A stretch of 64,000 nucleotides of DNA from Heterotrichella gracilis (lineage: Eukaryota > Sar > Xanthophyceae > Tribonematales > Xanthonemataceae), in NCBI GenBank assembly GCA_032358255.1, contig JAULBX010002224.1, positions 124,001 through 188,000 on the forward strand. Direction: 5' to 3'. The notes beneath the pieces are model-generated. The model had not been told where the DNA came from. It did not search any database and worked only from the letters and a program-made list of their open reading frames with translations. The translations under genes and the position numbers were made by a program. Of this stretch, positions 1 through 55,395 are shown one piece after another; within the stretch, counting starts at the first letter, position 1; every line of letters begins with the position of its first letter.

Positions 1-206
1 TCCCCCCGATACCTAATGCCAAAGCAACCTCACACTGGTTCCTTAAGGTTTTTGGTCTACACCGGCATTGTGATACACCGCCCACCCCCACAACCCCTCC
101 CTTCACACCCACCTTCCTCCTGTTCCACACGACTATTCATATGGTTCATAGGGTTTTTATCGCCTTCTAAAGGTTTTATAGGGTTTCCTGCCATCATCCC
201 ACCCAC
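1..206 (-). other. Intron of RPOT running off the window edge
   Basis: The donor GTGGGT follows the last visible RPOT exon at 207. The stretch contains a second copy of the exon 3' edge and donor at 107-123, matching 201-217. No further RPOT coding block was recognised here. Confidence 0.6.
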
Positions 207-3200
207 CTTCCTCCTGTATGGCTGCACCACCGGCAGGCCCAGCGGCGTGCTCCACATGACTGCCTGGTCCGCGTGTGCAATGCGGCGCGCGCAGTCCGCC
301 AGCCAGTGCATGATGTGCTTGGCGCTCTGGAACATCTCGTGGAGGCTGGTCAAGGTGACCTGGGGGGTAGGGGAGGGGGTGAGCGGGTGGCGGGTGGGAA
401 TGGGCGGGGGTTGCAAGGAGTGGGTGAGGTGGTTATTGGGTATGACTTGCGGGGGGAGGTAGATGGTAGCGCGGTGGAGATGAGGGGTACAGCTGGCATG
501 AGGGTTGTAGATTAGGGTTTTTAGTTCCAACTGCCTCACAGCACCATGTGCAGTACTGCAACATGCCATCCTCCCTCCCCTCCTCAACTAACCCTCCGGC
601 CCCCTCCTTCACCTTCTTCACCAGCCCGAGCATCACAGCACAACACCAATCCACCCAATCAACCCCCACCCCCACTCACCCTGGCACCGTAGCACGATGT
701 CCGGTACAGTGAGATGTCGTCCTCCCACCCGCGCTCCCTCAGCCGGTTGCCGATCTGCGTGCGCGCCCCCACAAAGGTGACGCCGTACACCGAGGTCATC
801 ACCGTTTGCTTCACAAGCTTGCGATCCACGTGGGGCAGCAGCAGCTGGGCGTATTGGCTGCCCTTCTCGGCGTCTGCCCTCACGCGCTCCAGCACCTGCA
901 GGGGAGAGGATGGTTGGGGAGCTTTTTAAGGGTTTTAGGGTGGCTGGTAGAGGGGCACAGGAGAAGGTGGGTTGGGATGCAATGCAACTGGTTCACAGCC
1001 TAGTCGGATCGCATGCATTGCCAAAAACCGGAAGCAGCTGCGCATTGCTGCAGATTAAATCACAGCTCTTGCAATCCGGTCCCATCCGTTCCTCTGTATT
1101 TCCACACGCTACAGCGCTGCAAAGTATCCAAACTCATAGGGCATACGCAAAGACCCTACACCTTAGCCACCCACCAGCGCTGCGACCCCATTAAACACCT
1201 CCTGTGGCCCCTCTGCACATAACCCTAAACCCTGACCCTAGCCACCCACCAGCGCTGCAATGCCGTTGTACACGTCCTGCGGCCTCTCGGCCGGCCTCAG
1301 GTTGACTGCCGCCCCCCCCAGCGAGTCCCTGCCCAGCGCCGCATAGTGCTGCAGCCCGTTGCAGGACCCGTCCTGGTGCACCGGCAGGTGGCTCATGAAC
1401 TGCTGGGGGTCGTCGCACTGCAGCAAGGGGATAGAAGAACATCAGTTGGATGATGTGAGGTGATACAATGCATTTAATTCTCTGCAGTTTTGATGCAACA
1501 GCAATACAAATATGGCTTTCGCCCGTGGTACTAGGGTCATCCCTTCCCCAATTTAATTTACAAGTATTTTGACAGTGGTACAAAATACCATTCCAGTTGG
1601 TTACGTTTCCCTTGTACCCTAATCCCTCAAAAGCCTTGTACCCTGATCCTCAAAACCCTACACCCCCCTACCATACCCACCCGGCCCCTCACCTGCAGCG
1701 CGTTGCGCATCTCAATGCAGGCCGCCAGGCACTGCCAGGGCGAGTCCGCCTCCAGCCACCAGGAGTGCTCGGGGCGCGATTCAGAGCCGTTGAGCGGGTC
1801 GTCTGCGCTGGCCAGCACCAGGTGCAAGCGGTCATCCACAAACTGGCGCCGGTCCTCGAAGGACAGCTTGTCAGCGCCGCGACCATAGAGATTGGCCACC
1901 TGCGGTGGGTGGGGTGGGGAATTAGGTGCAGGAAATTAGGTCCATTTTGGTCTAGGTTTTCTCTCGTGTTGTATTGAAACAAACGGTTTGCTACGCCAAG
2001 AGGGAGAAGCTCTGCCAGACGGAATGTCCTTCCCTTCCACTCAAGCAGGCTACTTGTACTACTCCTTTTGTCAAGCCACAAAAGTCACGTTCCAATAATG
2101 GATAGTAAGTGGCACCCACCTGTACTTTGAGCCAGTCCAGCCCCCGAGGCCCCAGCGGCCGTGCCTCTGAGAATTGCAGCAGCCCGCGGCACACGTCCGA
2201 CCCCAGATGGTTCAGGTGCGGGTGCATGGGGTAGGCGCGCCCCCTGAGACAAGGTTAAAAAAGGTCAGCCACTGGGTAATCCACAGGAGAAGACTTCATC
2301 CCATTGCACGCCTGAAAGTATAGGACTGCAGGAGGGATGCAGGAGATTCTGGCCGTATATTATGTAAGTGCAGGAATGGATATGCATCCATACAGGAAGT
2401 CTGCAGAAAATGGAATTCTGCAAAACAATCAGGTACATGTGAAATGCAGGTACATGTGAAATGCAACTACATCCCCTTTGCCTAAAGTCCAGGTTGTGTG
2501 GGAAGTAGAACGCACAAACCCTAAACCCTTGCCTGAAGTCCAGGTTGTGTGGGAAGTAGAACGCCTCCTCGTCTCGGTAGTCCCGCGCCACCCTGAGCTT
2601 GTACTCCAGGTCGCACCGCAGGCTGTGCATCTCAGCGTTGATCTTCTTGGTCTTCAGGGCAGCCTGCTGGCGCAGACGCTCCTCCGTGGGGCTCTCGCCC
2701 TTGAGCTGCAGAGGGGAATTGAACATTAGAAGAGGGCAAAAATGATCGCAAACACACAGTAATTTGTTCTTGCTTATTCACATACAAATATACGATAATG
2801 TCGATATTTACTTTGGGTTCAGCCCAGCCTGCTGCCGCAGGCGCTCCCCGGTGGGCCTCTCGCCCTTGAGCTACACAGCCGTGCACAGTACAAGACGAAT
2901 TTATGCATTCACCTTCCAACCCCCCACCCGCCCCTGCCACCTACCGACACAGTGAACAGCTTGCTCCCCTGGTGGTACCCCGTCCTGAACCGGGGCTTGG
3001 CGGGGCGAGGCATGGGCATGTTGGCCACTGGGGGGAGGTCGGCTATGTCTCCCCCCCTGCGCCAGGCCTCCTCCACCACATCCAGCAACCCGCCGTTGAT
3101 CTGCCACCCTGTTTCGCCTAGCGCGTTCAGGGCGTGGAACACCTGTGGTGATGGGGATGGGGATGGCGATGGTGGTGATGGGGATGAGGATGCAAAGGGA

Positions 3201-6200
3201 GGTGGTGCTGTAAGCGCATTAATCCTGACTGATGCACTGTCACTGTCGCAAGCCAGCCATCTTCCCAAGTTGCACCCGGTGTGGTTTGTGCTATCAGATT
3301 ATACAGCTTTTTATGTGCCAAGCTACCTATTCCACAGCTCCATGCCCAATGCCCAAACCATGTCAACCCCCCTCCGCGGCCCCCCACCCTCCATCCGCCG
3401 CCAGCTTTCGTTCCCATCCCACATACCCCTCCCCTGCCCCCACCCACAACCCCCCCCCGTTCCCTGCCCCCCACGGGGCACCTTCCCCATGCTCCTCTAC
3501 CACCACTAATCCCACCCCCCCCCTTCCACAGCCCCCACCCCCCTCCCCCCACCACAACCCCTAAACCACCACGTACCTTGCCCATCCTGTGCTCCTCCGA
3601 CGCCAGCTTGAGCTCCCGATGCTGCAGCTGCGTCCCCCGCATGCGCATGACTGTGGTCCTCAGCGTGAGGTAGCCGCCCTCCTCGGGGCCGCGCCAGGGG
3701 AAGGGGGGCACCAGCATGGGCATGTAGCGGGGCATGAAGGTCTCGCGGGCCTGCGGGGGGTGGAGGTGTAACAAGGGGTGTATGAAGGTGTCGCGGGCCT
3801 GGGGGGTGTAAAAGGGGGCCATGGGGGTCTCAAACATGTGCAGGGAGTTGAGGGACCAAAGAGGGCAGGCATCAGCATGACAGCCCTTTCACCACAGAGT
3901 GCGCCTCGACCTGCCTAAGCACTTGCTCGCAGCATGTCATGATTCACTGTTTGCTAAAAATTCAAGATTTGAGGTTCACAGCAAGCGCCCCCTCTCATCT
4001 CAGGTTAGGATTTAGGGTTTCACAGCAAGCGCCCGCTCATCGTCTCAGGTTAGAGTTTAGGGTTTTCACAGCAACGTCCCCGCTCACCTCAGACTGCGCC
4101 TCTATCTGCTTGAGCACCTGCTCGTGGCAAAACAGGGTTCCAAAGCGCTTCCAGAAACCCTTGGTGATGGGCTCATACCCTAGCTGGATGTCGTGGTGGA
4201 AGGCGGGCACCACGCGCCTGCCCCGAGGGGTGTCCACCTCGATGGTGGCGGTCTTGATCAGCAGGCTCACAAGCACAGTGCCAACCTGCGGGTTAGGGTT
4301 TAGGGTTAAGGGTTTAGGGTTTCAGTGGCGGCCTTGATCAGCAGGCTCACAAGCACGGTGCCAACGTGCGGGCGGCGGGTGGGTGATGGGTGGGTGGGGG
4401 GTTTCTTTTTGGGGGATGGATGGGGAAGGGATGCGATGGGGACAAGGGAAAGTGGGTGGCTGTGGATGCTTTGCATGAATGCGTTGCCAATAATGCCAAA
4501 GGTTTCGACCTGCTACCAGCATTGCCGAGCGTCACACCTGCGTGCATTACTCCACACCAACCTTTCCACTCAACCCCATGCAAACCTGTGCCCCCCCTTA
4601 CCTTAGCCAGCACCATGTTCGACCAGCTGCCCTCATTGTTGAGCGTCTTGCGTGCATGCTTGTTGGTCATGGAGGAAGCCACACCAGGGCGGGACCAGCG
4701 GTTCTGGATGAGGCGCAGCCGCTGCTCAAACTGCGACTTGTCCTGCGGGGAGGCGAGGGGGGTGCGGGTGGGTATGGTGGGTGGGTGGTGGGTGGTGGGC
4801 GTTGGTAACGATGGAAGGAAAACTTGACTGGGAGACGTGCCATGCGTTACACAATTCCCATCTAGCCAGTCATGATACCCTAGGCGTGCGCACGTTTGGT
4901 GCATTAGGGTCCCAGCGCTGCCCGCATGCACACACAAGGGAGCGCCGAGTGGCACCACCGCGGCCAGGCACCCCCCGTCGGGTGAGCATCCATTGCATGC
5001 AAAGCCATGCCATTGCATTGGCATGCGTTCCCGCACACGGCGCCAGCCAAGCACCACAGCACCCTGCCTTGCCCTGCCCAATCCAACCTTTATCCAGTCC
5101 TCGAGCTCCTCCGGGCCCTAAACCCTAAACCCTACACCCCACCTTTATCCAGTCCTCCACCTCCTCCAAAGTGATGTTGTCCCCAAGGTTGCGCCAGCCA
5201 ACACCAAAATGGCCCCTGCCCGGACCCTAAACCCTAAAACCTGAACCCCACCTTTATCCAGTCCTCCAGCTCCTCGGGGGTGATGTTGTCCCCAAAGTCG
5301 CGCAGCTTGTCGGCCACCCGCTGCTTCCTGTCTGGGGACAGCGTCAGTCCCTGCCACGGCGACGCCTCGCCCACCTCCTCCCCCACCTCCTCCAGTGCGC
5401 GGGTCACCAGGCTGCGCCGCTTGTTCTCCTTGCGCACCTCAAGCTTCAGGTGCTCCAGGTTCACCTGGGACTGGGCGGCCTGCGCGGGGAGGCCGTGGTT
5501 GGGAAGTCAGGGCTTTTTTCGAAAGAAAAGATAATCTTTCGAGATAAAAAATGTAAATCGGATATCCTTGTATGCTCCAAGTCACCAGGGACTGGGCGGC
5601 CTGCGGGGGGATGCCGCGATTGGAAAGTAAGGTAATTAAAATTGCAGGTAAATATTTTTTTACCTACAATTTTTAATTACATCTTTTTGTAGTTTACGGG
5701 ATATTTGTTACATACAGGGACACACTTTGTTGGACCGATTGTGACTAGTATGGACCATTACCTTGCCGATGTGCAGCGCCACCTTGGTGAGTCGGATCTG
5801 TCCAGCAAACTCAGTGTCCCCCAGCATCAGCATCCCCAAAGCACCTGCACCGCCAGCCCATGGAAATTAAACAGGGAACGAACCATGCGCCTGGAGTTTC
5901 AGGCAACTGCATTATTCTTCGTGCAACATGATGAGCAATAGACGGCTCGGCACGGTTTGGTGGAATGACCGGCACCTTTACGTAGGCAATATTTCCAATC
6001 CTGGGGGAGGCTACTTTGACAGGTCGCTGTGGTTCTACCGATATTACCCTAGAGGGTTCTAGAGAATTGCAAGCTTCACTACTGAGGGGCCTTACCGCAG
6101 TCTGCACCATGCACTCAACATGCTGTGTGTGGGTTGGGGACTAGGGTTTACGGGTTGGGGTTAGGGTACGCACCGTGCAGCGTCAGCACCGTCAGGTGCT

Positions 6201-7170: not shown

Positions 7171-7848
7171 GGCGGGGATCAACACGCGGGAAACATACTG
7201 GCGACACCAGGCCCCTCAGGTGCTGCCTGTGCTGCGCTGCGCGGGGTGCTGCCAGGCGTGGCGCATGCGGTGGCGGGTGTGTGGGTGGTGCGAGGGGCGG
7301 TGAGGGGTGGAGGAGCCGACCGGGTGGCGGTGTGGTGGCGAGCCGTGTGGTTCAGTAACCTGGGCTGTGCCGCCACTGCAAGTGGCGGTTCCTTATCGTA
7401 GCCCGCTGTGTGATATTGCTGGGGTTTAAGCAGTTGTATAGTTCAAGGGTGCAGGGACTGCTACTGAGTGTGAAATGTATATATGCATGCACTGTGGTGG
7501 CTGCGCTTGGAACAGGGATGTGACACAGAAGCGTGCAACAAAGCAGCCCTTTGCGAAGTTACATGGAACGGAGGGCGAGGAGCAGCTTGAAGCAAAGTAT
7601 GCAGAGCTGGAAAGCTTCGTGACTTAACATTCGGCTTTGTTTTTGGCGCTAGCCTCCAGGCCCGCCGCTAGGCGGACATACCGCCGACGGCGCGCCGCCG
7701 TGCAACCATGTCCTGGCCAAAATTTTCTCAGGAAAAAGACACAACCCAGCCAAACATATTCTGTCGTTGCGACGCTTTGCAACAACCTGCTGCAGACCCA
7801 TCTACGCCTTCTTCCACAACCCCTGACCCCACACGGCATGTGACCACC
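7171..7848. promoter_or_regulatory. Divergent promoter region of RPOT and DPH2
   Basis: This spacer of about 680 bp separates two start codons facing outward, so it should hold both promoters and 5' UTRs. I see no clear TATA box at a credible distance. An ATG at 7708 is in frame with DPH2 and could extend it by 47 residues. Confidence 0.5.
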
Positions 7849-12144: not shown

Positions 12145-15100
12145 CTAAAAGCCCTGCACAAACATGTCCATGCGGTACTCTCTGAGAATCACCGCCACGC
12201 TGGTAGCGGGGATGGCGCCAAACTCTGTGAATATGACGCTCACAAACTCTGCCGGCATGGCGTCATACAGCAGGTTGAGAAGGCCTGCACAAGAGGGGGG
12301 GAAAGGAATCAGGGGGTGTGAGTGGCGTGGTGGCAGATTAATCAGGGCATGTGGTTTGCCATGGAAAGGGAATACCAAACCACTAGAGGCACCGACCAAC
12401 CCAGTCGGGTGGGTGGGGTGGGTGGCACATAGGTGCATGTAGCAGCATGGACAATGGGGGACCAAAACGATTGGAGGTGACGCGGAAGTAAGGGGGTAGG
12501 CACCAATTCAAGGGAGGGCGCCTAAGATAGTGTGTGTGGCATTAAGAAGTCAGGGACACATCATATGCGTGTGCCAGGTGCGATATATGCTGCCAACCTT
12601 CCACAACCAGCGCACAAGCTCAGCCGTACCCCGCGCTCGTCTCAAACCGCCACCAGTCATCCATACTTGCCTTCACAATATGCGGTGATTTGGCTCCAGG
12701 CATGCAGCCCAACCCGGTCCCAACACTCAACTTTAGGGTTCAAGCTTAGGGTGTAGGGTTTCAGCGTTTTACCCACCTAGCTGCGGGATGTCCTCCCAGC
12801 CCACCAGGCCCTTCACCGCCCCGTGGCCGGGAACCCTCGCCACCTCATTAGGGTCCCCCAGCTCGTTGGAGGTGATGCTGTCCAGCTGCACCCGCTCGTG
12901 GAACTTGTAGGTCTCGCAGCACACCATGACAGGTATGTGGCAGGCGGAGGCCAGCATGGCCACTGACGCTGAGCCCACGCGTGACACCACGGTGCCGTTG
13001 GACAGAACGGCGGAGGCACCCAGGAACACCTGTGGCGAGTGTGGTGGGGGGTGGGTGTGGGGTATAGAGCAGGCTGTGCAGAGTTTATTGCAAAACGACG
13101 GAGTATATGACATGGATGAAGGCAGCAGTAGCATGGCTTTTGGACGCCTATTGCAGTATCTTGACCACGTTGTTGATGCATCACACCCAAGGTTTTGCGG
13201 CCAGCACCAATGCACATGCATGTCCTCCACATCCCACTGACGTGTGTTGCCTCCACGATGTATGGCACTTCGGGATTTGTATCTCTGGCCCAATCCTCAC
13301 ACTCGCTTCCTCCACCCCTTCCTAACCCAACCCCCCAAACACCCACCTTGGTCACCTCCTTCATGATGTACGACACGGCGTTGATCTGCACAAACACGCA
13401 GCTGATGCCCTCCTGGAGCAGCCTGCGCAGCATGGTCCTGCCCTCGCACCCAGGCCGGGAGTCTGCCACCACCACCCGGAAGGATTTCTTCTCCTGAGGC
13501 AAGCAGGAGGAAGGGTGGGAGGGTCAGCAATCTCAGGGTGCCAGGCGTGACCGTGGCTCAAAGATGTACACAAATGATAGAGGGGTTTCAACATGACCAG
13601 AGGGTCCGGATCCGTCCCAAACGTCAGAAATTAATACAATTCCTCCTGGGACCAACGATCCAACGATCCCACGACGAGTGAGATAATCACAGGCCAGGTA
13701 GATGTCACTGCTGGTGCAGACTATGGAAGGCAGCGTGAGCGCCTGTCCAGCACCACTCCAACTCCACCATCACCCTGACACCCCCACCTCCCACTCGTCC
13801 CCACACACCCCGACCCCCACACCCACACCCTGACACCCCCACCACCCACCTTCTTGGCCTGCACCAGGGTGGAGAACACCACCGAGGAGAACGAGTAGGT
13901 CAGCACCACGTCGCCCTCCTCCACCTTGCTCACTGCGTTCTTGACCAGAACGCTGTCTGCAAACACAATCTTCTCCTGGATGTAGGTACCGATGCGCTCA
14001 CACAGCATGCGCTTGGCCTCTGCTTCCTCGGTGCTGGGGTCAAGCTTGGCAACCTGGGTGGGGGTGGGGGGGTGGGGGTGGTACAGATGCAGGAACTCAT
14101 GGTACATGCTTGGACGCACTCAGCGATTGACATTTCCAAGTAATCCTACCACCCTGAAAAATGGACTTCCCATTGACACAGACAGCGCCCGACACTCAAC
14201 CAGAATCTGGGATCGTGCTGCCACCTCTGACTCAGAAACCCTAACCCTTGCCCGACAACCCTTTGCCTGGCCTGGAACCCACTCCCTAGCCAAACCACTC
14301 CCCCACCCACCTGCAGCTTGATGAACTTGATTGCATTCCCCATGGACACCGACAGCGGCCGGCACTCCACCAGGAACTGGATGGCGCTGTTGAGCTGCAC
14401 CGTCAGGTCCCGCCCCATCACCTTGCCCTCGGGGGTGGAGTAGTCCTGGATGATCTGGCGGAAGGTATCCAGCATGGCCACGCAGCGCCCGTTGCCCCCG
14501 CTGATGGACCCGTCGGCAAACTTGAGGCCAAGCTGGAGCGTGGCGGGGTGCAGCGCGCCCACCTCCTCGCACCTGCGCACAGGGTGTAGAGCTTAGGGCT
14601 AGGACATGGGTGTCCATGGCGCTGGCACTTGGCAGCGGTCCGTAAGAAATCAGGGGTGCATGCGCTTGTTCAATAGCAGGCATAGATGTCTACTCTTGGT
14701 CGTCACCCTCGCACCTGCGCTGGGCCTGGTGCACGTCCCTATCTACTATATAACAGTTATAGGTAATAGGTTTTAGAGTTTAGGGTTGTTTCCGGCGGAA
14801 ACTTTCCGCACCTGCGCTGCGCCTGGTGCACGTCCATGCGCCTGAACTGTGGCAGGTGCGCAAACATCTCGGTGGTCTTGGCCTGCACGGGGAGGGGGAG
14901 GTAAATTAGTGAGCTACATGCATTCAGCCAGAATACCACTCAGTCTTGCACATGCGGTGCCAAGTAGTTTGATGCTCGCACGTTTGCAAAATACCAATTG
15001 GTTGATATTGCGCGATCTGACGTCCTGCTGGGGAGGTGACAAATGCCTCACACATGGCGTGGTTTGCATGCTCATAGCCATGCACCACCATGGGGGCTGC

Positions 15101-18020: not shown

Positions 18021-19477
18021 ATGCCGCCAAAGTTCGACCCCGCCACTCTTATAGAGGTGTACGTGCGCGCCACCGGTGGAGAGGTGGGCGCCGCATCCTC
18101 CTTGGCCCCCAAGATCGGGCCCCTGGGTCTGTCGCCCAAGAAGATTGGTGAGGACATCGCCAAGGAGACAGCCAAGGAGTGGAAGGGTTTGAGGGTGACG
18201 GTGAAGCTGAGCGTGCAGAACAGGCAGGCCAAGGTTTCGGTCGTCCCATCCGCAGCAGCGCTGGTCATCAAGGCGCTCAAGGAGCCCCCCCGTGACAGGA
18301 AGAAGGCGAGTCCATGCATATGTGTGCACATGTATGTGGGCTCCGGGCAGCGAAGGGCACAGCTTGAGGGGCGCAATATGCTGTATTACGCAGCCGTTAT
18401 GCAGTATGGGAGGCGGTGTGGTTGGTGGCCATGCATGGCACCCAGTGGCCCACTTTCCAGGGTCCAGGATGCAAGCAAGTGCTTCCTTTGATACACCAAG
18501 TCCTGTGCACATGAGGCACTTATTGCGTATGTGGACCCTTGTCAACACTATTCTGCTGGGCTGGGTGTGCCTTAAAACTGTGTTCAGGGTACAACATGGC
18601 CCCCACACACACATTACAATTACCTGGTTTCTACCCATATTGCAGGAGAAGCACATCAAGCACAGCGGCAACCTGTCGCTGGACGATGTCATCGAGATTG
18701 CACGGATCATGAGGGACAGGAGTTGCGCCAGGGAGCTGAAGGGGACCGTCAAGGAGATTCTGGGCACATGCGTGTCAGTGGGCTGCCAAGTAGAGCACGA
18801 GGACCCACGCGAAATCCAAAGCAAGGTACAGATATCTTGACGAGGGTTTTCTTATGGCATTGTGGAGTGGCACTAGAGCAGTGAAGACTTGACCCGCTGT
18901 GGGGCAGGTGCATCTTTACTGGACCATAAGTTTGCATTGCACTTGTCGGCTGGGGCAGATTCTCTTGATTGGAACATGACCTTGCATTGCACAGGGCGCA
19001 GCATTGTGTGACTGCATCTATCTCAGGCTTTGGAGTTAACGTACTCAAGAACGAGCAGAGGATATTACCGTACCTCACGCAGATTAGCGTAACATGTGAG
19101 GGGTTTGCAGTTGCTCTAGCTGCATATGTCAGTGTGAGCTGTATGGTCCCTAGTGACGCCACCTGTGTTGGTACCAACTGAAACCGTACTGGGTGATGGT
19201 GGTGGGTTTGGGTGAACCTTGTGGCTTGCACTTGTGTAACTCTTTCCTTCTAATTGGTCGGTACTTGCCCCAGTGGGCGGTTCTGGCGCTCCAGTGGTTT
19301 GTACCGGTTGCCTCGTTGCATGTACAGGCCGGGACCCCGCGTGTCAAGGGACGTGTCAGTTTGGATTTTCTCCCCAGCACCTCACTCCCGTGCACCCTTT
19401 AACGGGTTGTGGACACTGACGCCTCCTGTGTTTCCCTGCAGCTCGATGAGGGTGAGCTGGAGGTCCCTGAGGAATAG
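18021..19477 (+). CDS. RPL12: 60S ribosomal protein uL11 (L12)
   Basis: A cytosolic large-subunit protein at the base of the P-stalk, near the GTPase-associated centre. Exons 18021-18305, 18646-18825 and 19442-19477 give 166 residues, the normal family length. It begins [20 protein letters not shown] and contains [53 protein letters not shown] and the acidic end [11 protein letters not shown]. Intron 1 must use a GC donor (AAG|GCGAGT) to keep the conserved [13 protein letters not shown] junction. The last exon encodes only 11 residues plus the stop. The start has a clean ACACC ATG G-less context, and no upstream in-frame ATG is seen. Confidence 0.97.
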
Positions 19478-19481
19478 AACA

Positions 19482-19605
19482 CGCGCAGCAGGAGGCGCGG
19501 AGGCGTGCTGGGGTCCAGCCTGAGGCATAGATACATGCAGCAGGGGGGGTCGCGGCGTGCTGACGTGCGGCAGGAGGCACTGTGGTGTGCTGACGCGCGG
19601 CCACA
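19482..19605. repeat. Degenerate GC-rich tandem repeat
   Basis: Three to four irregular units of 30-50 bp share the core GCAGCAGGAGGC followed by GGYGTGCTGACG. They lie just after the uL11 stop, probably in its 3' UTR. Confidence 0.5.
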
Positions 19606-19613
19606 GGCTGTTC

Positions 19614-21656: not shown

Positions 21657-24600
21657 ATGCAGACTCTTCCTCAACTTCAATGCATTGTTGCATTTACTGG
21701 CGTCCTTGCACTGGCACTATCCCTCCACCCCTTATACCAAACGCATGCAACCACCACAGTTGTTCCTTTCCATGCAGTCGACTCAAAGCAGCTGTCCGAG
21801 TGGCGAGTCGGCCGTGCCACAGTATACGGAGGCTGGTTCGATCACAAAGACCCAGATCTTCCCTCTTATGGCACGTTAGAGGTAAGTTCACCTCACCCTG
21901 TCTCAAGCTACACCATGGCACATCCTTTTTTCTCCACATGCAATAGCTAGTTATGTGTCCACACGCAATAGCTAGCCACTTGGTACTGTTGGCTGCCATG
22001 AATAAGCCAGATTTTTTATGTCAACACCGACATCTACTGAATTACCCCAAACCCAGTGCTAGTTAGCCACCAGTAAGTGCTGTTGGCTGCCATGCAGGGA
22101 AGCTGCGGATACGGAATCATCCCTCGGTACACATATCCTAACTGGAATGTGGCTGCTCTGTCCACCGCCAACAAATTCTTCCTGCAAGGCCCTCGTGAAG
22201 GGTGTGGAGAATGCTTCAAGGTGGTGTGTGCAGACACGCGCAAGGTGACGTCCTGCACAACTCCAAGCACCATACCCCCACACGATACCAACCCAATTGG
22301 ACGCACTTGACTGCTCCACACACTGTATCATGATATCAATATGGCCGTACTGCTTCCTCCGTGCTTGAGCCATATAACCCTGCTCCGTTCTCATGCCAAT
22401 GCTGCATGTGTAAACCCTAACCCGAAACCCTCCATAATTTTACGTGCAGGGCACTTGCGATGGACCTGAGGACAGCCTGACAGTGCAGATCACAGACAAG
22501 TGCCCAGAATGTGAGGCGGACCACCTGGACTTCCCCTGGCGGGCCATGGAGCGCATCCACAACCCAAACCCTATTGGGGACCTCACCATCAACTACACAC
22601 GGGTCAGCTGCAGCCCACCCGCTGGCCTCACCGTCTATGTTGACCAATGGGTGGGGGGCGGCGGTTGGATGCGCGTGTTTATCTTGGTAAGTGCAAAAGC
22701 ACAAGATATATAATTATGAGCTTGGATGTTTTGACCAGTTTTGTAGTTCCATAGCGCGCCATTGCTGGGCAGTCCCTGCAAACGCGGCGTAGGGTTTGGG
22801 GTTTGAACTGGAATCCTGTTCCTCAGCTCGTTCACCCGCATAGCACAGACCCTGCCTATGCTTTTACCTTGATGAGCATCCATTTGCTTGCGAGTTACCA
22901 TGCCTGGTAGTTTGCAGGTTCCTTGCTGTAGGAGGACACATGAGTGGCGCCACTGCCTGTGTTGCTTGCAGGATGTGGGTGGATTTGGGGGGGTGACGCA
23001 GGTCCTTGTCAAGGGGAAGACAGACGCCACCTGGCGGCCCATGGATGCCACATGGGGTGCAGCATGGCAACTAGGGGTTTCGCCAATGGTGCCAATCAGC
23101 TTTCGTGTGGTGGGCGAGGATGGCCAGGTGGTGAGTGGTGCAGTCCATGTTGCATGGATGATCCGCGGAATTCGATTTCTTTTGACGCACATCAACAAGT
23201 AAAGAAGCAACATTGAGTAGACTAAATTTGACATGAGTGTGCCGAAACTGGTGGGAAGGCTTGACCATGTTCCTTGCAGTATTGCGATGGCCATGTGCCT
23301 ATTGAGGCTCAACAATGCCCCGCAAGCAAACACCTCAATGACCTATCTCACACGCACAAGCACATGTACTTGCAAATGGCACTACCCATCACATGTTCAC
23401 ATGCACGCATGCCAAGGTGTCCTGTGCATCTATTGTGTACGTCATGGGCCCTGGATGCAGGGTATGGTGCTGAACCCTAAAACGGTTCTCTGTGTGCAGG
23501 TTGATGCGCTGAACCTGGTGACAGAGAATGGGCGGAAAGGCAAATACAATACAGACGATAACTTCAAAGTAGTCAAGGTAGGTGCATGCAGCCTATCATG
23601 GATGCATGTGCAACGAAACAACCTAACTTACTATTTTAAGCTGATTTGTTATCTTCCCGATCGGCCATACTGCCTTTCATGCCCTTGGTGCAGCACCTTC
23701 CTGGTGTGGAGTTTGTGCACTGATGGTGGCCAGGCTTTGCCTTGCCCTGTGCTGCTGAGTGTCACAAGAAACAGGGAACAGAATATGGCCAGCCAATGCA
23801 ATGCCTGGATGCTACAAGTGCGGGGGACATGGCCACGCATGATCTTATCATTGATCATTAATCGATAGGGTCGCGCAATAATCAAAATATATACGCTTGT
23901 ATACCAGAATGTACGGTATATACCAGTATATACTAGTATTGGCAAAACCATATGCGCATTTGCACAACCCTATTAATCGATGATCATTGATTGATGATCG
24001 TTCATGTGATTATTGTTCAGCCAGCATGCAGACTCATGCTTGGGTATTGCCACGCTTGTAGGACAGCACCTCCGGCCTGAACACGCATGATCTGATCATT
24101 CATCATTCATGTGATCATTGATCATCGAGCATGCAGACTCACGATCATGCTTGGGTATTGCCATGCTTGTAGGACAGCACCTACGGCCTAAACGCCAGTG
24201 CCAAGCCACCTCCCAAACGCCGGCTGTCCCCCCCACTCCTTGTGCCAGTTGTGTCCCCTGTCAACAGCCCCCCGATTGACGCAGGTGGGTGCACGTTCAG
24301 TTCCTGCAGTAACTGTTTGAAGTGCTCTGATACCAGCAGACTTGCGTACCATTTGTGTCTCTGTAATTTTTACACCCTCGGTAAGGGTTTAAGGACCAGG
24401 GTTTAGGCTGTTGGGAGAGCAACCTGTCTGACGCCTTATCCTACGTATGCTGCAGGCAGGCAATTTGCCCCACAACCACCCCGCAAACGATCACCACCAA
24501 AATCCAAGAAATCACCGCCACCTAAGGGGTCCCCACCACCACCCAAATTGTCCCCTTCGCCACCCAAGCGATCCCCGCCACCACCAAAAATTTCCCCACC

Positions 24601-27600
24601 ACCCCCAAAGCGGTCCCCGCCACCACCAAGAATTTCCCCACCACCCCCAAGGCGGTCCCCACCACCTCCGACCTTTTCCCCGCCACCCCCAAGGTGGTCC
24701 CCATCACCACCAAGAAACAAATCGCCACCTCCGCAGCGGTCCCCTCCGCAGCCCAAGCGATCTTCACATCCACCAAAGCGATCCCCACCGCCACCAAAGG
24801 TCTTCCCACCACCACCCAAACCACCACCAACCCAGCACCACCCACCACCGCCTCAAAAGTCACCTCCGCCTACAATCTCCCCACAGCCACCCAAGCGGTC
24901 CCCACCGCCTCCCAAGCGATTACCGCCACCAGCAGCACACTCACCACCACCCCATCAATTGCCACCACCACTCAAGCAGCCGCCACCACCAGCAAAAAGC
25001 CCACCACCACCTCATCAGTCTCGACCACCACCCAAGAGACTGCCACCACCACAACCGCAACTATCACCCAAGCCACCACCACGGCCGAAGCCATTATCAT
25101 CTAAGCTGCCACCTACCCACCACCGCCCACCACTGCTTCAAAAGTCACCTCTGGCTAAACTCTCCCCACCACCGCCCAAGCGGTCCCTACCGCCACCCAA
25201 ACGATCCCCTCCATCGCCTCCCAACCGATTGCCACCACCAGCAGGACATTCACCACCACCCTCTGAATTGGCACCGCCACTCGAGCAGCCGCCGCCACCA
25301 GCAGATCGCCCACCACCACCACATCCTCAGTCTCGGCCCCCACGCAAGAAACTGCCACCACCATCTGTGATGTCCCCACCACGCCCGTCGCCACCACCAC
25401 GACCGCCGCACTCACCACAGCCGCCACCATCACCCAAACCACCACCCACCCACCACCGCCCACCACCCCGTAAGCCACCACCATCATCACTCAAGCCACC
25501 ACCCACCCACCACCACCCACCACCGCTTCGGAAGTCGCCCCCGCCCCCAATCCGCCTCCCGCCGCCACCACTCCTTGGGAGGCCACCCCCTGCTAAGTCA
25601 TCACCGCCTCCATTGGAGTCCCCACCATTGCCACCATCCCCGCCCTCACCACCACAGGCGCCATCCGCATCAGGTACTCCCTCGCGCATTGGACACGTGT
25701 CCACATTCCAGCATGCCCTTGAGTGGCGCTGCTGATGCACATGCTGGTTCATGGGCTGCTGGTGCGCGTGGTGTGGCATGTAGGTAGGAAACAAGCTTCA
25801 AATGTGCGAGTCTGACCCCAATCCCATTGTGCAGGTGGCCCAGAAGTGCAGCTGTCAGGATGGCGTGTGGGCCGAGGGACTGCGTATGGAGGCTGGTCTG
25901 AGGGCAAAGATCCGGATGCACCATCACATGGCTTATCAAAGGTGAGCTTTTCATCAGCTTTCCAGATGTACATGGGCTGTTTAAAGTTGGTTCTGGTGAC
26001 CATATGATTGCAACATGCGTGATTACACGAAAAATTGCAGCCAAATGCAGCGTACACGCCTTGCGGCGCCGGCGCAGTTCAACTACGGTAGGTTCCCTTG
26101 CATTCTGCCACCCGCATGCGGTTGGTCTGCACCCTGTTCTTCATTCGCAACAGCATTCATCATGCCCTTTGGATGTAAAAATGAGGATAAAGAACAAGAA
26201 TAAATAATGATAAGTACCCGCCGCCTTGTGCAGGGGAGCTGCGGCTATGGCCCCATCCCCCGCTACGATTACCCTTACTGGGGTGTGGCTGCTGTGTCCG
26301 CTGCCAATATCTTCTTCAAGCTTGGACCCCATGAGGCGTGTGGCCAATGCGTCAAGGTGGTGTGTGCAGACACGCGCAAGGTATTGCGCAGGCACAAAAC
26401 CAACAAAATAAACACATTAGTTAATAAGTCAGATAAAAGTTGATACAATGTACAAACTAGTATTCAATTCAACTTGAAATGTTCACCTCGCAGTGTCTGC
26501 AACCAACTACCGCCCTCCCTTGAACTGCATCAGTGGTGTTGCACAGAGTGTTCAGGGCCCTTTTTCGATGACCTCCCGCGGTATGATGTCATTGGGATTT
26601 GCAATGCTGTGCCCATCTGGGTGCACTGCGGAACCCACTTACGAAACGTTACTGCCGAACCACCTGTCTGTAACTGCTCCCTTGTGTGCAGGGCACCTGT
26701 GAAGGCCTGCAGGCCAGCATGACAGTTGTCATCTCAGACACCTGCTCTGATTGTGCACCAGACCAGCTCTCCCTCCCCTTTAGAGCCATGGAGCGCATAC
26801 ACAACCCTGACCCCATTGGGGACATAGCCATCAACTACACGCGGGTCAGCTGCAGCCCACCTGCTGGCATGACAGTCAATGTGGAGTCGTGGGTTGGAGG
26901 CGGCGGCTGGATGCGCGTGTTCATCACGGTAATCACCCTAGGGGGCTCCTCTTCTCGTGCCCTTCCTGTGGTGGATGTTGCAGATGTACATTCTGTATTT
27001 GCCGTTTGTTGAAAAGGACATGGAATGTGCATTGCATGACATTGCCTTGTGCATCATGAGCCGTGGACTACCCTTAGGGTTTAGGATTTATGGCTACATG
27101 CAGCCTGAGCTGTGGACTACCCCCCTGGATGCCGATTAGAATAACTTGCATGCAGAATGTGGGTGAATCTGGGGCTGTGAAGCAGGTCCTGGCGAAGGGG
27201 CAGTATGATGAAGACTGGCAGCCCATGTCGGCCACATGGGGAGCGGCTTGGGAGATGGGGAAATCGCCGTATGTGCCAATCAGCTTCCGAGTGGTGGGAG
27301 AGGATGGGCAGGTGGTGAGTGGTGCACTATGCATGTCTTGTAACAAAAGGTAGTTTGCATGGCCGTGTGATGATGCATGGCTCGCTATAGCATGCACAAT
27401 CTGTGAGTGCTAGGAGTGGCTGGAGAGGTTCACCAATCATGTACAAGTGCACCCTCCTGTGGAGGGCCTAATGGACAGGTCTTGGCTCACACCAACCCCA
27501 TGTGCAGGTTGAGTCTCCAAGCCTGGTGAGTATCAATGGCCTGAAAGGCAAGTATGTGACGCAGCAGAACTTTGAAGCAAGAGCAACCGTGGTAGGTGCT

Positions 27601-33084: not shown

Positions 33085-35679
33085 CTATAATTGTCCTACG
33101 GGCAGTGGTTTGGGCGCGTACAGCTTCTTGGCCTCCTCCAGCGCTGTGAAGAACACCATGCCACCGATGCCGATCCACAGCACGCGCGGCTCCCAGCCCT
33201 GGGGCAGCACAATGGTGGTTAGGCATCATGTTGAGTGCAAAGGGCTGTGTGTGAAGTGGCATGTGTCCATGCGTCCACATGCAACATTGTCTAGGCAGCA
33301 TTGTGAATATGGGTTGCTGGGTGATTGAGCAACAGATGCCATGACATCGCGTGCCTATGCTGCAGTGGCGCGACAGCGTGCTGGGTGGTGGATGAGTTGA
33401 TGTAGGGCTACGTGGAAACTAGACAGCTTGACAGGGCCAGTTGTTCAGTTGTTCACTTACCCTGAACAATGTGCCCACGCCCTCCTCGCGGGCCACCTTG
33501 GCTGCGCAATCAAACGCATTTGCATACACCTTGTTGGCCCCCTGGGTCATCAGTCGCGTCTTGATCAGGTCCAATGGAGTGGTCACAAACCCAGTGACAG
33601 CCCCCGAAACAGCCCCGCAGGTGGATGTCTCAACAGGGTTCAGCTCGCGCTTGACGCTCTTCTTGTACGCGGTCTTCATTTGCTCGTAGGTGAAGAACTC
33701 AATGGCGTCAAAGGGGAGGTCGCGCAGGAGGAAGGAGCCGTAGCCTGCAAAGAGCCCCTTCACACCCTCGCGACCAATAATCCCCTTGATGGCTTGCCCT
33801 GCCTTGAGGAACTCGCCTGCGCATGGCACCAATAAAAGCAAATAAGAAAATACTCCCCACTAAATTACTCCCTGTAATCACAAAATTAAACATATCCAGT
33901 GCAAGCCAGTTATGTAATAGCCTGCATGTGGCACTAATGCAGATTAATTGTGCGAGCCAGTTCTGTAACCGCCACACACATGCAAAGCACCTTTTAAGGT
34001 GACCGCATATCGCATGAAAGCACGGCATGCATTCAACATCATGGCATGGAGATGCAGATGTGATGTGGTGGATGTGGCCCCATGTGCATCTACCTGCCAC
34101 AAGCCATGCAAGATGAGCAAAGCACCCTGCTCGTGCCACGCTCATGCACATGGGTCACAGTGCACCTACAGCATCAACACCCTATTTAGTCGGGTATGTG
34201 CAGGGGAAGTCAGTGTCCCCATCTGTTTGCATGCGCTGCTTGGTGACCCCAGCTGGAAGGGTATAGGCGGGGGAAAACGAGGGATAAGGCAGTGTCCCCA
34301 CCTGTCTGCATGCGCTGCTTGATGACCTCAGTGGGGACCCGCACAATGGAGGCGGCCAAGCCTGCAGTGGCACCCGCAGCCAGTGGGGCTAGGTGGGCCT
34401 GCTCAGCAGACGAGCGCCGGCTCACCTGCGCACACCAGCGCCGCAGCCAGTCACAGGTCTGATAACCCCCGGTACAACACGGTGCAGTTGGACACCCCAG
34501 GAGGGAATGCCAATGCATTGCAGTATCTCTCTGACTTGCACCATCCTTCTCCCCCGTCCCAACCAATGCAAACCCTCCAACTCCATGAGTGCACTTCAAA
34601 ATCTATCCAATTGCCAGTGCACGATTCAAACTATCCAGTTTTGCTCTCATCCCACCCATCCCAAGTGGAAGCCTCAACATGAAGCCAACACAAAAGTAAA
34701 TGCCAAGAGCACCCACCTCTGCCTTCACTGGCTCATATACTGCCATGAAGATGGCGGACGCAGGCGCCACCCCCACCAGGTTGCCGAAGATGCCTGCGTA
34801 CAGCGCCTTGCCACCTCCGGCCTGCAGCAGGGCGCGCAGCCCACCTCCCGAGCGCATAGATTGCAGCCGCGTCTTGATGGTGTCAATAGGGTACAGGGCT
34901 GCAAGGGCAGGGAGGGCACAACAGTTGGGGAGGTTGGCGACCAGTGGTACCTTGGCCTGTCAGCAATGCGCCTGAGCATGTGCTTATATAGCACTGCAGC
35001 AAAGCTGTGCAAGGGAGCGGTACTCTGACTGTATCCTGCCACACAGGCACACCCCTTGGTGTGAGCTTGGTTTTTCTCCTGTTTTGCTGTAAAGCTGCGT
35101 TCAGTGCCGGTGAGCTGCTTTACCTGCTTCTACAGCACATCCCGCTGTTGCTCCAGCAGCAACGTTGCCCAGCACTGTCCTCCATTGGGGTGCGCCAGTA
35201 GGCGCCGGTACTGGCTTCGCTGATGCTACCATGAACTGCTCTGATGCCCTCTTCTTGGGCTTATCTGTACAGTGTAATGGCGTTGAAAATGAGTGCACTA
35301 TAAACAGCCAACAATATCAAGTATCAGCTAGTGATAGGTGTAGATGAAGTGCACAGATGGTCTTCAGAAGGGTGAGTTGCACAAGTGTTGTAGAAGTGAG
35401 ATATGTCCTGATGGCGCGAACAGTGCTGAGTCGTGCACAGTACGTACCTTCGTCTGCAGCGGCTGAGGCTGTTGGTAGTGAGAATGTGATGGCTGCGAAA
35501 GGGAGGGCTGAGGCAGCTGCACGTCTGCCTTTGCTTTGCCTTGCCCCTCTGGCACGACCCAATGTCACTGCCCGAGTGCTGCTGCTGGTGGCCCTCAGTA
35601 GGTCCAAGCTAGGTTCAGACAGAAGCCCACCACTCTGCTGCTGACTAGCTACCAGTCTTCTGCGAGCAGAGAAAGCCAT
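33085..35679 (-). CDS. Mitochondrial carrier family protein, S-adenosylmethionine carrier-like
   Basis: Six exons, 35679-35448, 35264-35124, 34898-34717, 34425-34302, 33816-33461 and 33198-33085, give 382 residues. Three carrier repeats are visible, each with the PX[DE]XX[KR] signature: PIDTIK (about 128), PTEVIK (about 216) and PLDLIK (about 307). The sequence between them and the end (EPRVLWIGIGGMVFFTALEE) resembles plant SAM carriers, which exchange SAM for SAH across organelle inner membranes. The first 77 residues are Ser/Arg/Ala-rich with few acidic residues, a likely plastid or mitochondrial transit peptide, so a plastid location is plausible. The SAM substrate is inferred from overall resemblance and not from a diagnostic residue. 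The last introns use ordinary GT-AG sites. Confidence 0.88.
34194..34335. repeat. Copy of exon 4 3' edge in the SAM carrier intron 4
   Basis: The block GTCAGTGTCCCCATCTGTTT...GCTTGGTGACC at about 34209-34246 copies the true exon 4 edge and donor at 34290-34328. The two are about 80 bp apart. Confidence 0.75.
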
Positions 35680-48934: not shown

Positions 48935-48996
48935 ATTGTCACACTTACTTGTTCATGATTTGCGCCATAATCCCCAATTTCAACGGTTGCTCACAC
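48935..48996. other. 62-bp convergent gap between RBR and DEAD helicase stops
   Basis: The stop codons of the two genes lie 62 bases apart, so their 3' UTRs must overlap or be extremely short. Confidence 0.7.
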
Positions 48997-51900: not shown

Positions 51901-52126
51901 CCACCTGGACACCTCTGTGTGGTGTGGTACTGACACAGCCCTTGCGGGTGTACAAGCTAGGCTGTGGCACTGTACACCTCACCCAACTGGCTGGAAAGAA
52001 TCCAGGTGAGTGCAGAGCCGCTTGTGGGCGAAGAGCAAGCCTCAAAAGCCTTGCAGCGTGCATACTGGGAAGGCGGTGGTCGTGTGTGGATGCTGCAGAA
52101 CTTGTTTGCAGCTGTTGGTAGCGCAT
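48997..52126 (-). CDS. DEAD-box ATP-dependent RNA helicase, probably organellar
   Basis: Nine exons, 52126-51752, 51550-51393, 51262-51082, 50831-50685, 50366-50164, 49961-49812, 49702-49481, 49391-49277 and 49194-48997, give 582 residues. Motifs in order are a Q motif (GYSRPAAVQ), I AETGSGKT (about 142-149), TPGAL (Ib), II DEAD (about 268-271), III AATMPSEG in place of SAT, the CTDSAARGIDIP block (motif V) and VI HRVGRTARAGRSG. The C-terminal tail is basic (FSRKRSFAKKYKKYGRF). The Arg/Ala/Leu-rich N-terminus suggests import into plastid or mitochondrion; plant RH22-like helicases in ribosome assembly are the nearest resemblance. Two introns need GC donors (51392-51263 and 49480-49392). ATG 52063 (MHAARLLRLALRP) is an alternative start. 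Confidence 0.92.
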
Positions 52127-52474
52127 TGTTCGTTATGTAGCAGCGTGGTCCAGTTTGACCAACCTAGAACACCGTGAATTGGTTTTAATAAAGTGGCCGT
52201 AGTGATTATTAGCAGCGCATTGTTGTTCTCAGTCGCCTATAACCTGTGCACGCCGCCAGCATATGCATGCGTTTACTATGCATGCATGCGTTTATGCCCA
52301 CCAACAACAACCCGTGTAGTGTGCAGCAGTTGGTTCGAGAACGTACATATAATTATCACCCTACGTGATAAAAAGCGTGTGTTGCTGAGCGTCGCTGTGT
52401 TTACGTGCTGGGCGCGCAGACTGTCAGCAGAAACCGCGGGACCAAAACCGCGGGAAGGGAAAAAATAAGGAGTC
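52127..52474. other. Upstream region of the DEAD helicase
   Basis: About 350 bp that should hold the helicase promoter. It contains ATATGCATGCG and TATGCATGCATGCG palindromes at about 52260-52290. No gene was recognised. Confidence 0.4.
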
Positions 52475-52768
52475 CTACCAGGACGTCGAGTGCATATCTT
52501 CATGCAACGGGACAGCTTTGCAACAAACCACTGCGTGCTGCTGAACACCCAAACCGCAATTGCAACAAAGAATCGGCTTGGGCTGTGTCTTTGAACTCGT
52601 GGTTGTGCTCGTCATCGCAGATGTTAGCATGCATGCATTCAATGCACCTGTGAACCCGGCAATGGCAATCAAACCCAGCAATATGTATTTGATGAAAGCC
52701 TTGCGCAAACGCAAGACTCTGTCTTGCGCCTCTGTGCTGTAACCCAACATACCAGTCTCGTGGGCCAT
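52475..52768 (-). CDS. Possible small membrane protein
   Basis: An open frame of 97 residues from ATG 52768 has a basic stretch (RLRKAFIKY) followed by one hydrophobic segment of about 20 residues (ILLGLIAIAGFTGALNA) and a Cys-rich tail. No family was recognised. It sits head-to-head with the PP2C gene, whose alternative start ATG 52767 overlaps it in a CATG palindrome. It may instead be the opposite-strand shadow of the PP2C leader, and the tail after the hydrophobic segment may be intronic. Confidence 0.35.
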   Translation of the reverse strand: MAHETGMLGYSTEAQDRVLRLRKAFIKYILLGLIAIAGFTGALNACMLTSAMTSTTTSSKTQPKPILCCNCGLGVQQHAVVCCKAVPLHEDMHSTSW

Positions 52769-52880
52769 GCTTCTCACTGGTCCGCTGGAAGTTCCAGCCC
52801 AAGCATGTTGCCCAACAGGCAGTGGGCGTTTCTTTGCTAGACCAGCGGCTTCACGGCACCCCGTGAGCAAGGCCTATGCG

Positions 52881-55395
52881 ATGATCGACTGTGGGACCTT
52901 CACAGACCCTGGTACACGATATGGGAGCTTGAATCAGGACTTTGTGGTAAGGCATGATGTTGGGGTTGTCAGTGTTGGGGAGTTGTGGGTGTTGTTGGTG
53001 TTGGGGTATTTAGGGTATTGGGTTGTTGTGGGTGTTGGGGTGTTGTGGGTATTGGGGTGTTGTGGGTGTTGGGGTTAGGGGTGTCACTGCCGACCTATGC
53101 AGGTTGGAACGTTGTGGTAACACTGACCAAAAACCCACATGCCCACCCTCCTGCAACCCCGTAGCCCCATACCTCACCGGGCTGAATTAGGGCAAAAATG
53201 CAAGCAAGCAATGCAGTAGCACTCAAGCGGTGCGGCCCTTCCCCTTAGGCCCTGGAGGAGCTGCATGACCACAACCACCTCAAGGAAGTGGGCGGCTACC
53301 AGTGCCTGCTGGCTGTGGTGTGCGACGGTAGGTTACCCTACACCTGGCATTGCGTTGCTGTGCAAAGGGCAGGGGAGGTTCGACCAGCTGCACCAGATGT
53401 CACACCTGTGCAGCCGTAACCTGCGACCTCAAATGTGCCTCATGCGGTGCCTACCACGCCACTTCCAACCTGCTGTGCCACTTGCAGGGCATGGGTTTAT
53501 GGGGGAGGTGTGTGCGGAGACTGCGGGAAAGCAGGTCCTGAAAACCCTACTCAAGGATCAACGGATACTGCACAAACCCCTCTGGGAGATCGAAGAGGCC
53601 ACTCTGCAATCTGTTCTTGCGGTGCGACCCTTTGGTTCCTACTGTCGTGCTTGCAAGCTAATTTTAATAAACGCAAATGTAAAAGTTGATCGTGTGGCTA
53701 GTTTCTGCGCTGATATAGTGGTTGCTGGTATGGTGCAGGATGCGTTTGCTGCAGGGGACAAGGCAGCGCTGCAGCTATATGCACAGCCACCCGCTGAATA
53801 CTACTCACCAACCACGGATGGGTGCGTTCCCTGCCTTCCGACCTTGAAGCTAGCCATTTGTTGCCCTACCATGCATGTGTCTATCAGCTTGTGGCCTGCA
53901 CGCAAACCCTAACCATGCCACCTGTGTTTAGGGATTTTCCAAACTGAGCCCTCAGCAAATTCTATTCCACCGTTGCATATTCATATTGACCGCTCAGCAG
54001 GGGTTACGCCACTCTGGCGTCTGCATATAATTCCCTCAGCAAGAGAGTGCCACGCTATGACCCTCAGCAAGACACTCTTAATACCCTCATAAATACCCTC
54101 AGCAAACCCTTCAGCAAACCCTAAGCAATGTCAGTGCCATGCGTGCAGCACGCCAGAAAAGTGGCTCCTGAAGCAGTCTGCGCGCGCGCCCTTCTACACG
54201 AATGAAGCCACAGGGGTGCGTCGCATCATGGAGTTTGGGGCGACGTGCACGGTGGCGCTGGTCCAGCACATGACCATTGTGGTGGCCAACGTGGGTGACT
54301 CCTCAGCGGTCCTTGGCAGGTGCGCAGGAAAAAAAGGCTCACGCCAATGCTCTCCTGTAGCTCAGGACCATGTAATCGACCCTATGCAGACGAGCGCTGG
54401 CAAATTCTGCCTCAAAATATCCGATCTGGACAATGCTGCATCCCGGTTCCACAGCGGACCAGCTGCATCCCGGTGCAGAATAAGGGAGATTGGCTCTAGA
54501 TTTCCCACCGTGGCTCAAACCTGGTTGCAAAGGGTCCTGATTTGCGCTCATGCAGGGAGATGCCCGATGGCACATTTGAGGGGATCACGTTATCAGTGCG
54601 ACACTGGGGAGGTGACAGCGGGGAGCGGCATCGGGTGCTAAGGGAGCACAACACATGGGTATCGTTTGGCAACGACGATGAGGATCTTAACTACTTCAAA
54701 ATTGTACAGGGCACGTGGAAGGTGAGCAGAGGCGTCACACTAGATGATGGGCTTGCCAGATGAAGGGCATAATGTGTGTGCTCAGCTGCACTAGTGCGCA
54801 CGTAAGTATCAGGCCAGACGGCAACAGGCAGCGGGGACAGCGGCATGATCACCTGAGGCAATGCTATCAGGACATGTCCTCACCGCACAGCCCATGGCCC
54901 ACATGCCCCACCATACCACCTGCATGCGCCGCATGCCAGGAGAGCCATGCACCTGCAGCCGCCATCCATTACGGACCCTGCATGCGAGCGCACCCACCAG
55001 CCCCATCAACCGTGCTGCACGGCTATGAGCTCGATCCTAAACCTGCCTGCAAGCACACCCATCAGTCCCACCACACCCTGCTGCAGGGCTACGAGCTGGC
55101 CATGACCCGCTCGCTAGGCCACCGCATACTGGCCTCCTACGGCATCATCCACACGCCCCACGTCTGCCGCCGCACACTCTGCCACGAGGATGTGTGCCTC
55201 ATAGTGGCCAGCGATGGGGTGTGGGATGCCTTCGAGCCCAGTGAGGCGGTTGGCTTAGTGGTGGATGAGCTAAGGAAGGAGACAGCTGCTGCCGAGGATG
55301 CGGCGCAGGTGCTGGTGAAGGAGGCTATTGCTCAGGGCTTGGAGAGCCCGAGGGGGGAGGCGGATAATACAACGGTGGCATTATTTGTATTCTAG
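52881..55395 (+). CDS. PP2C-family Ser/Thr protein phosphatase
   Basis: A Mg/Mn-dependent phosphatase. Exons 52881-52946, 53249-53327, 53488-53621, 53739-53821, 54149-54319, 54556-54721 and 55087-55395 give 335 residues. Family blocks are VVCDGHGFMGE (metal-binding D48-G49), FGATCTVALVQ, IVVANVGDSSAVLGR, GYELAMTRSLGH, LIVASDGVWDAF (D276) and the final EADNTTVALFVF (D326-N327). GDS is present, while the usual GD after the TRSLG-type motif reads GH. The middle segment (about 178-233, MPDGTFEGITLSVRHWGG) is unlike typical PP2Cs. ATG 52767 would add 38 residues; 52881 is chosen because the conserved part begins soon after. Phases of all introns agree. Confidence 0.88.
52960..53080 (+). repeat. 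G/T-rich minisatellite in PP2C intron 1
   Basis: Irregular GTTGGGG and GTTGTGGGT units over about 120 bp on the sense strand, a candidate G-quadruplex tract. Confidence 0.8.
54985..55105. repeat. 64-bp acceptor-side duplication before the last PP2C exon
   Basis: The block CTGCATGCGAGCGCACCCAC...GGCTATGAGCTCG at about 54979-55034 is repeated at about 55047-55100, where it forms the true CAG acceptor and the first codons (GGCTACGAGCTGG). CCTAAACCTG lies at the joint. Confidence 0.8.

Follow-up and report, generated by a model that had tools for sequence, protein, structure and literature searches.

Introns of this nuclear genome contain direct copies of the edges of neighbouring exons together with runs of the telomere repeat, an association that had been predicted from a single stretch of DNA (the window, i.e. 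the whole 64,000 nt that were analysed, corresponding to positions 124001-188000 of contig C24) and that proved to be real there and to extend beyond it. We consider it probable that the underlying structures are scars of staggered breaks at which telomerase added repeat units before the ends were filled in and sealed by end-joining, and that such scars were tolerated in introns.

Telomere runs and exon-edge copies in the window

The genome comprises 68.5 Mb in 903 contigs. Its telomere repeat is TTTAGGG; perfect 42-mer arrays of this unit start at most 7 nt from the contig start in six contigs (C70, C140, C526, C609, C717 and C770), and a profile search of the genome matched the TERT RNA-binding domain (PF12009) on contig C626 at 4.8e-13. 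The internal runs are identical to this telomere repeat of the organism itself. Genome-wide, 2845 plus 2784 perfect double heptamers (total 5629) were counted, compared to 2 plus 3 (total 5) for a reversed-pattern control, and subtraction of the 834 21-mers leaves about 4795 separate perfect runs of at least 14 nt, or about 70 per Mb. Within the window, TTTAGGG or CCCTAAA occurs 25 times against 5.4 expected, a number that was reached in none of 100 shuffles.

Introns of 60-1500 nt that are flanked by exons of at least 60 nt were regarded as testable for copies of the adjoining exon edge. The original prediction had claimed that introns carry decayed copies of this kind, and, accordingly, 12 of the 96 testable introns in the window were found to harbour 15 copies with a score of at least 14 (Table 1), whereas mispaired controls reached this score in 2 of 3798 comparisons, with a maximum of 15.5. 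Ten of the copies score at least 20; the other five, at 14-15.5, are individually weaker. As judged from the coordinates, 8 of the 15 copies are separated from the exon by a telomere run, and at 1221, 2516, 4293 and 55036 the copies end 0-4 nt from the run. Three of the 12 introns (2706-2944, 5480-5761 and 33817-34301) hold no run of at least 8 nt. Heptamer runs had been cited at about 1220, 2517, 4291-4323, 5115, 5223, 14229 and 14774, and all seven places are indeed telomeric, whereas the estimate of at least a dozen introns in five or more genes stands for the introns only: the 12 introns belong to four genes, with eight in RPOT, two in eIF2B and one each in the mitochondrial carrier and PP2C. 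In RPOT intron 4743-5251, the same exon end and its donor occur in triplicate, and each of the two joints contains a telomere run. As a separate observation, RPOT intron 2244-2532 (minus strand) has, as modelled, a GC donor (CAG/GCAAGG), and the intronic copy has a GC donor as well.

With regard to gene identity, Pfam searches with single exons supported RNA_pol, IF-2B, Mito_carr and PP2C; of the ten exons searched, six exceeded the family cut-off, one matched DPBB_1 with a score under this limit, and the remaining three gave no match. For three of these genes we use finer names, which we take to be RPOT, eIF2B-delta and SAM carrier. The double expansin, which had also been listed among the genes with exon-edge copies, does not belong there, as zero copies were found for this pair in the intron edge test of the window. 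The sole copy pair, in the second gene, is situated in mid-intron around a telomere run (Table 1). One exon of the expansin-like pair matched DPBB_1 below the Pfam cut-off, the other exon gave no match, and the paralogous expansin intron was too diverged to be aligned as an empty site. Long CCA-rich tandem repeats are present between the two expansin-like genes (24400-25600; strong GC skew of -0.379 in the 24-26 kb bin), and an exon of the ribosomal protein uL11 type (Pfam Ribosomal_L11_N) was observed at 18021-18305.

Table 1. Direct copies and associated telomere runs in the window (positions within the window; identities as matching over aligned positions).
Feature	Position	Strand	Telomere run	Copies and remarks
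RPOT exon 3' edge and donor	1160..1291	-	1221-1233	copy 1235-1291, intronic copy 1160-1216, 46/57 identical
RPOT exon 3' edge and GC donor	2475..2564	-	2516-2529	copy 2530-2564, intronic copy 2479-2513, 34/35 identical
RPOT acceptor-edge copy	2660..2878	-	none	exon part 2660-2713, copy 2825-2878
RPOT acceptor-edge copy	3726..3809	-	none in spacer	spacer 12 nt
RPOT donor-edge copy	3889..4124	-	4005-4020, 4050-4065 (spacer)	44-45 nt tandem unit 3975-4092
RPOT exon 5' edge and acceptor	4245..4372	-	4293-4322	edge 4245-4292, intronic copy 4325-4372, 45/48 identical
RPOT exon 3' edge and donor, three serial copies	5083..5303	-	5116-5139, 5224-5248	runs between copies
RPOT acceptor-edge copy	5451..5632	-	none	
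eIF2B weak donor-edge copy	14169..14360	-	14236-14244 (spacer)	score 14.5
eIF2B donor-edge copy	14707..14835	-	14767-14787 (spacer)	score 26.5
Second expansin-like gene, mid-intron direct copies	27050..27122	+	27074-27090	21/24, around run; not exon edge
Mitochondrial (presumed SAM) carrier donor-edge copy	34207..34331	-	none	
PP2C exon 5' edge copy	54979..55097	+	55036-55043 (at joint)	44/53 over whole flank, edge-test score 15.5

Runs and local duplications beyond the window

The analysis was extended to a readable sample of 250 kb, which includes the window and from which a masked stretch of 14 kb of N (G000:C6:50001-64000) was left out, and to bait loci. Of the latter, 60 were centred on runs taken from the first 100 entries in the list of perfect-14-mer places (C3:160230 was left out), and 20 further loci were taken from a 21-mer listing on contigs C9-C24. 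Genes were predicted by a two-strand gene finder trained iteratively on the window together with a further 186 kb of readable sequence of the same genome, and the genes obtained were plausible; exons shorter than 35, 50 or 60 nt were dropped, depending on the intron test. Flanking direct copies were defined by an alignment score of at least 18 within 200 nt, and a run was assigned to the joint if both copies ended at most 25 nt from it. Runs near the ends of blocks or loci were dropped before these counts.

Flanking copies were detected at 32 of the 80 bait-centred runs (23/60 and 9/20), and the run was at the joint in 16 of the 80 (10/60 and 6/20), compared to 8.0% and 2.4%, respectively, for a local control at positions shifted away from the runs (described below) and 2.7% and 0.9% for random positions (n=5000). 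Among unbaited runs of at least 13 nt, 8/16 inside the window had flanking copies and 3/16 were at the joint, and the signal outside the window was weaker (5/37 and 2/37). Seen from the duplications, the 250 kb sample contains 105 local duplications versus none in one first-order Markov shuffle, and 13 of the 66 close ones (gap of at most 80 nt) carry telomeric 7-mers in the joint, six in the window and seven outside. Heptamers are also more frequent at joints than elsewhere, in line with the original prediction, with a density of telomeric 7-mers of 31 per kb in joints, 4.8 per kb nearby and 3.0 per kb in the sample overall. Two regions of simple repeats, at about 24.4-25.6 kb of the window and at 28.0-28.6 kb of the C2 block, were kept in the duplication and joint-density counts and dropped from the counts of exon-edge pairs and codon positions given below. 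The association of run and duplication is strong, yet neither feature requires the other: flanking copies were not detected at 48 of the 80 bait-centred runs or at 32 of the 37 unbaited runs outside the window, and the joint lacks a telomeric 7-mer in 53 of the 66 close duplications.

At 37 joints, the copies are 26-177 nt in length (middle half 36-67 nt) and have a median identity of 0.90. Copies that typically differ by about 10% argue against an assembly artefact; in a Trebouxia assembly, telomeric repeats over 500 bp away from the ends of contigs have been examined as possible misassembly points (PMC12712428, in the part of the paper at hand). The direct copies that flank the insert would also be produced as target-site duplications of a mobile element with telomere-repeat ends, but the copy length is variable, and the inserts inspected consist of heptamers and variable filler, the 6-mer listing revealing no clear shared sequence. 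Such an element is, thus, an extremely improbable source of the scars.

The runs are clustered; when counted in 5-kb bins (n=49), they give a variance/mean of 2.38, which was matched in none of 5000 multinomial simulations. Five bait loci (L035, L036, L038, L069 and L105) have the appearance of serial copy-run arrays, suggesting that a scar may later be multiplied, and at positions shifted by 230 nt from runs (n=424; flanks of 150 instead of 200 nt) copies are already present in 8.0% of the cases, against the 2.7% at random, and joints in 2.4%. Clustering, serial arrays and the raised level of copies near runs would all fit a sequence of events in which the runs, whatever their route of entry, preceded the copies and, as fragile or slippage-prone sites, provoked local tandem duplication. 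However, in simple cases (such as 2516, 4293, L041, L098 and L099) a run is present at the joint and none in the 12 nt beyond each copy, as expected if the run entered with the joint, and we regard an order with the runs first as unlikely. On a larger scale, clusters of runs and duplications were observed in some genes (window 1-5600; C2 block at about 22 and 36 kb) and both are sparse elsewhere; no telomere run of at least 8 nt occurs between about 16.6 and 22.4 kb of the window. A search with L056 returned L056 itself and 11 partial places.

Exon edges, introns and coding constraint

The duplications show a modest preference for exon edges. In the unbaited 250 kb sample, 20 pairs connect an exon edge with an intron, where 7.9 are expected for the same shapes at random placement, and in the bait loci a predicted exon edge is located inside 21 of 29 joint duplications (16.0 expected). 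Part of this excess is to be expected, since the exonic copy does not decay and such pairs stay visible for longer than mid-intron pairs; together with tolerance, this could explain much of the preference. Among 297 confident introns, ten, four of them in the window, contain an edge copy with a score of at least 16 (none in the mispaired control), and at least six telomeric 7-mers are present in six of these ten introns versus 22 of the other 287. All 53 runs of at least 13 nt lie in predicted introns, in gene models that leave UTRs unannotated and only 7.8% of the sequence intergenic, and none of these 53 lies in a predicted exon, compared to 8 of 124 runs of at least 8 nt.

For the 12 pairs of coding copies that flank a telomere run, the differences between the copies are distributed 13:11:24 over codon positions 1:2:3, close to the pattern to be expected if one copy is constrained and the other free. 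Frames for this test were chosen by best coding score, and 28 of 87 pairs passed; the coding pairs without a telomere run yielded 61:24:28, a distribution dominated by low-complexity repeats of the C6 block. At locus L103 (263-453), the exon end VPFIADLKPSGKYVMEDLHK, presumably of an IlvD-like gene, occurs in two copies and might represent an alternative exon; the scored coding stretch of 63 nt contains four differences, all of them synonymous. This locus raised the idea that both copies are under coding constraint, with a diverged allele or an alternative exon as the source, against which the distribution over the 12 pairs speaks.

The original prediction had also raised the possibility of intron birth, for which tandem duplication across AG/GT is a known route; on this reading, a duplicated segment would turn into a new intron that encloses the telomere run. 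Donor and acceptor are located in matching copies in a single one of the 297 introns (C8 block, 18699-18859), which fits such an origin but is devoid of a telomere run, and at the RPOT joints inspected the copies are intronic beside one edge and not at both ends. Intron birth by this route is, therefore, very improbable as an explanation of the scars, which remodel introns already present and duplicate their splice sites. The 161-nt intron in the C8 block (G000:C8:50001-90000) is in its own right a candidate for intron gain by tandem duplication.

Direction and phase of the runs

A new feature is the polarity of the runs, as the 3' end of the G-strand is locked to T and the 5' start is far less biased. 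For the 53 unbaited runs of at least 13 nt, the start phase gave p=0.34 and the end phase p=1.3e-5, with T as the last base in 39 of 53 (p=6e-6; T3 20, T2 11, T1 8). The respective values for start and end were p=0.03 and p=2.2e-5 for perfect runs of at least 14 nt (n=21), p=3.6e-5 and p=3.1e-14 for perfect runs of at least 9 nt (n=87), and p=0.15 and p=0.0076 for perfect bait-locus runs of at least 20 nt (n=47). Thus, the starts of perfect runs are not wholly phase-free, and the ends are more biased each time. For perfect runs of at least 14 nt genome-wide, the three end phases counted amount to 3383 (GGGTTT), 1610 (GGGT) and 614 (TTTAG), and the two start phases counted to 1406 and 869. This asymmetry points to templated 3' addition; it would be expected of template-directed extension of a 3' end by an enzyme, or of fill-in that has to begin opposite a pyrimidine, and does not obviously follow from slippage or recombination. 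The telomerase-like addition at breaks that had been suggested along with the duplications is, hence, sustained in part, in that the repeats are statistically tied to the joints and the phase-locked 3' end fits a templated enzyme.

Among runs of 8-12 nt, the phase ending in TTT dominates (36/71), which is the phase of the plant telo box AAACCCTA (PMC3022908, as far as the excerpt goes), and among the central bait runs the C-sense is commoner, both in introns (48 vs 29) and at acceptor edges (8 vs 1). Both findings might be taken to indicate that the runs are regulatory or splicing elements under selection, be it telo-box-like elements, pyrimidine tracts or branch points, the duplications being incidental. 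However, copies flanking the run are predicted by no motif function, and the orientation of unbaited intronic runs is balanced (24 vs 29), so that we find a selected motif quite improbable as the explanation. A strand bias of intronic runs as such was dismissed, being absent in the unbaited sample and mild in the bait loci.

Proposed origin of the scars

Returning to break repair with telomerase addition, we envisage that a staggered double-strand break would leave two complementary single-stranded ends, to one 3' end of which telomerase would add a few TTTAGGG units. Filling-in of both ends and sealing by end-joining would then yield the order copy, telomere run, copy, so that run and duplication would have been inserted in a single step. 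Exonic scars would be purged by selection due to the stop codons carried by the run, and scars would be tolerated in introns, or across a splice site as long as one intact edge copy remains; introns might thereby accumulate decayed exon edges and telomere runs. As the filling-in polymerase, CST-Pol alpha-primase is a candidate. In mouse and human cells, according to the portion of that study at hand (PMC8355091), breaks with 3' overhangs give rise to small tandem duplications in a manner dependent on CST and Pol alpha-primase, and, based on this dependence, one enzyme set could make the duplication as well as the C-strand of the run.

Overlaps of at least 2 nt were found at 8 of 24 G-strand 5' junctions (three of them of 5-12 nt and maybe derived from arrays) and at 2 of 19 3' junctions, L035 being left out of this count; they are no more than suggestive of priming by short matches at the G-strand 5' junction. 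A primase that sets both ends predicts a purine as the first base of the second copy, and this variant is not supported, a purine being present in 8 of 23 cases. With respect to a fragment of the telomerase RNA beside the runs, the 6-mer listing showed no clear shared motif.

More tentatively, it might be speculated that staggered intragenic breaks are routinely processed in this lineage by telomerase and then by the telomeric fill-in machinery, an activity that would leave telomere-stamped duplications in thousands of places, doubled splice sites and longer introns as a dated break archive; this wider role is possible, though we lean against it at present. If true, the ...GGGTTT end would mark the point at which the template ends or fill-in halts, and the phase of the land-plant telo box could share this origin. 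As a scar carries strand, phase and two datable copies, break repair would be readable from genome sequence. The scars, moreover, connect the insertion of telomere repeats with the formation of small tandem duplications at breaks, subjects that are usually treated apart, and constitute a concrete source of intron growth and of alternative splice sites.

Comparison with known systems

No report of telomere runs at exon-edge duplications was found among the titles and abstracts listed from the open-licence literature. Similar to our loci, tandem-duplication intron gain involves a duplication across the exon-intron boundary, as in potato RdRp (PMC4974935, PMC3443670, both in excerpt); in contrast to these cases, existing introns are lengthened here and their splice sites doubled, and no new intron is shown. 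For the plant telo box AAACCCTA, the authors propose that telomerase acts on free 3' ends, and the repeat as well as an over-represented phase are in common with the runs described here (PMC3022908). However, telo boxes are 8-9 nt in length and most frequent in 5' UTRs, and no flanking duplications are described in the part of that paper at hand, whereas the present runs comprise at least two units and reside mostly in predicted introns.

The duplications that depend on CST-Pol alpha-primase resemble those at our runs in being small, set by the overhang and filled in before Ku-dependent joining, and they involve the telomeric fill-in machinery (PMC8355091). That system consists of nickase breaks in mouse and human cells, and the portion of the study at hand describes no telomere repeats at the joints.

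In mammals, short interstitial telomeric sequences have been ascribed to break repair, with a proposed role of telomerase (PMC7215372, from which the following is also taken, as far as the excerpt goes). In the horse, a simple target duplication was present at 3 of 66 loci, with two more within complex changes, and deletions were commoner; the target duplications at some horse loci have been ascribed to staggered breaks, and for human no exonic cases are given. The scars analysed here share with these mammalian sequences the short internal telomere runs and a change of the flanks of the break type, namely direct copies. They differ from the horse loci in that flanking copies are present at 32 of 80 bait-centred runs, that about 70 perfect runs per Mb are present, and that many are located at exon edges. 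Thus, they represent a known kind of insertion, which is here denser and more duplication-rich.
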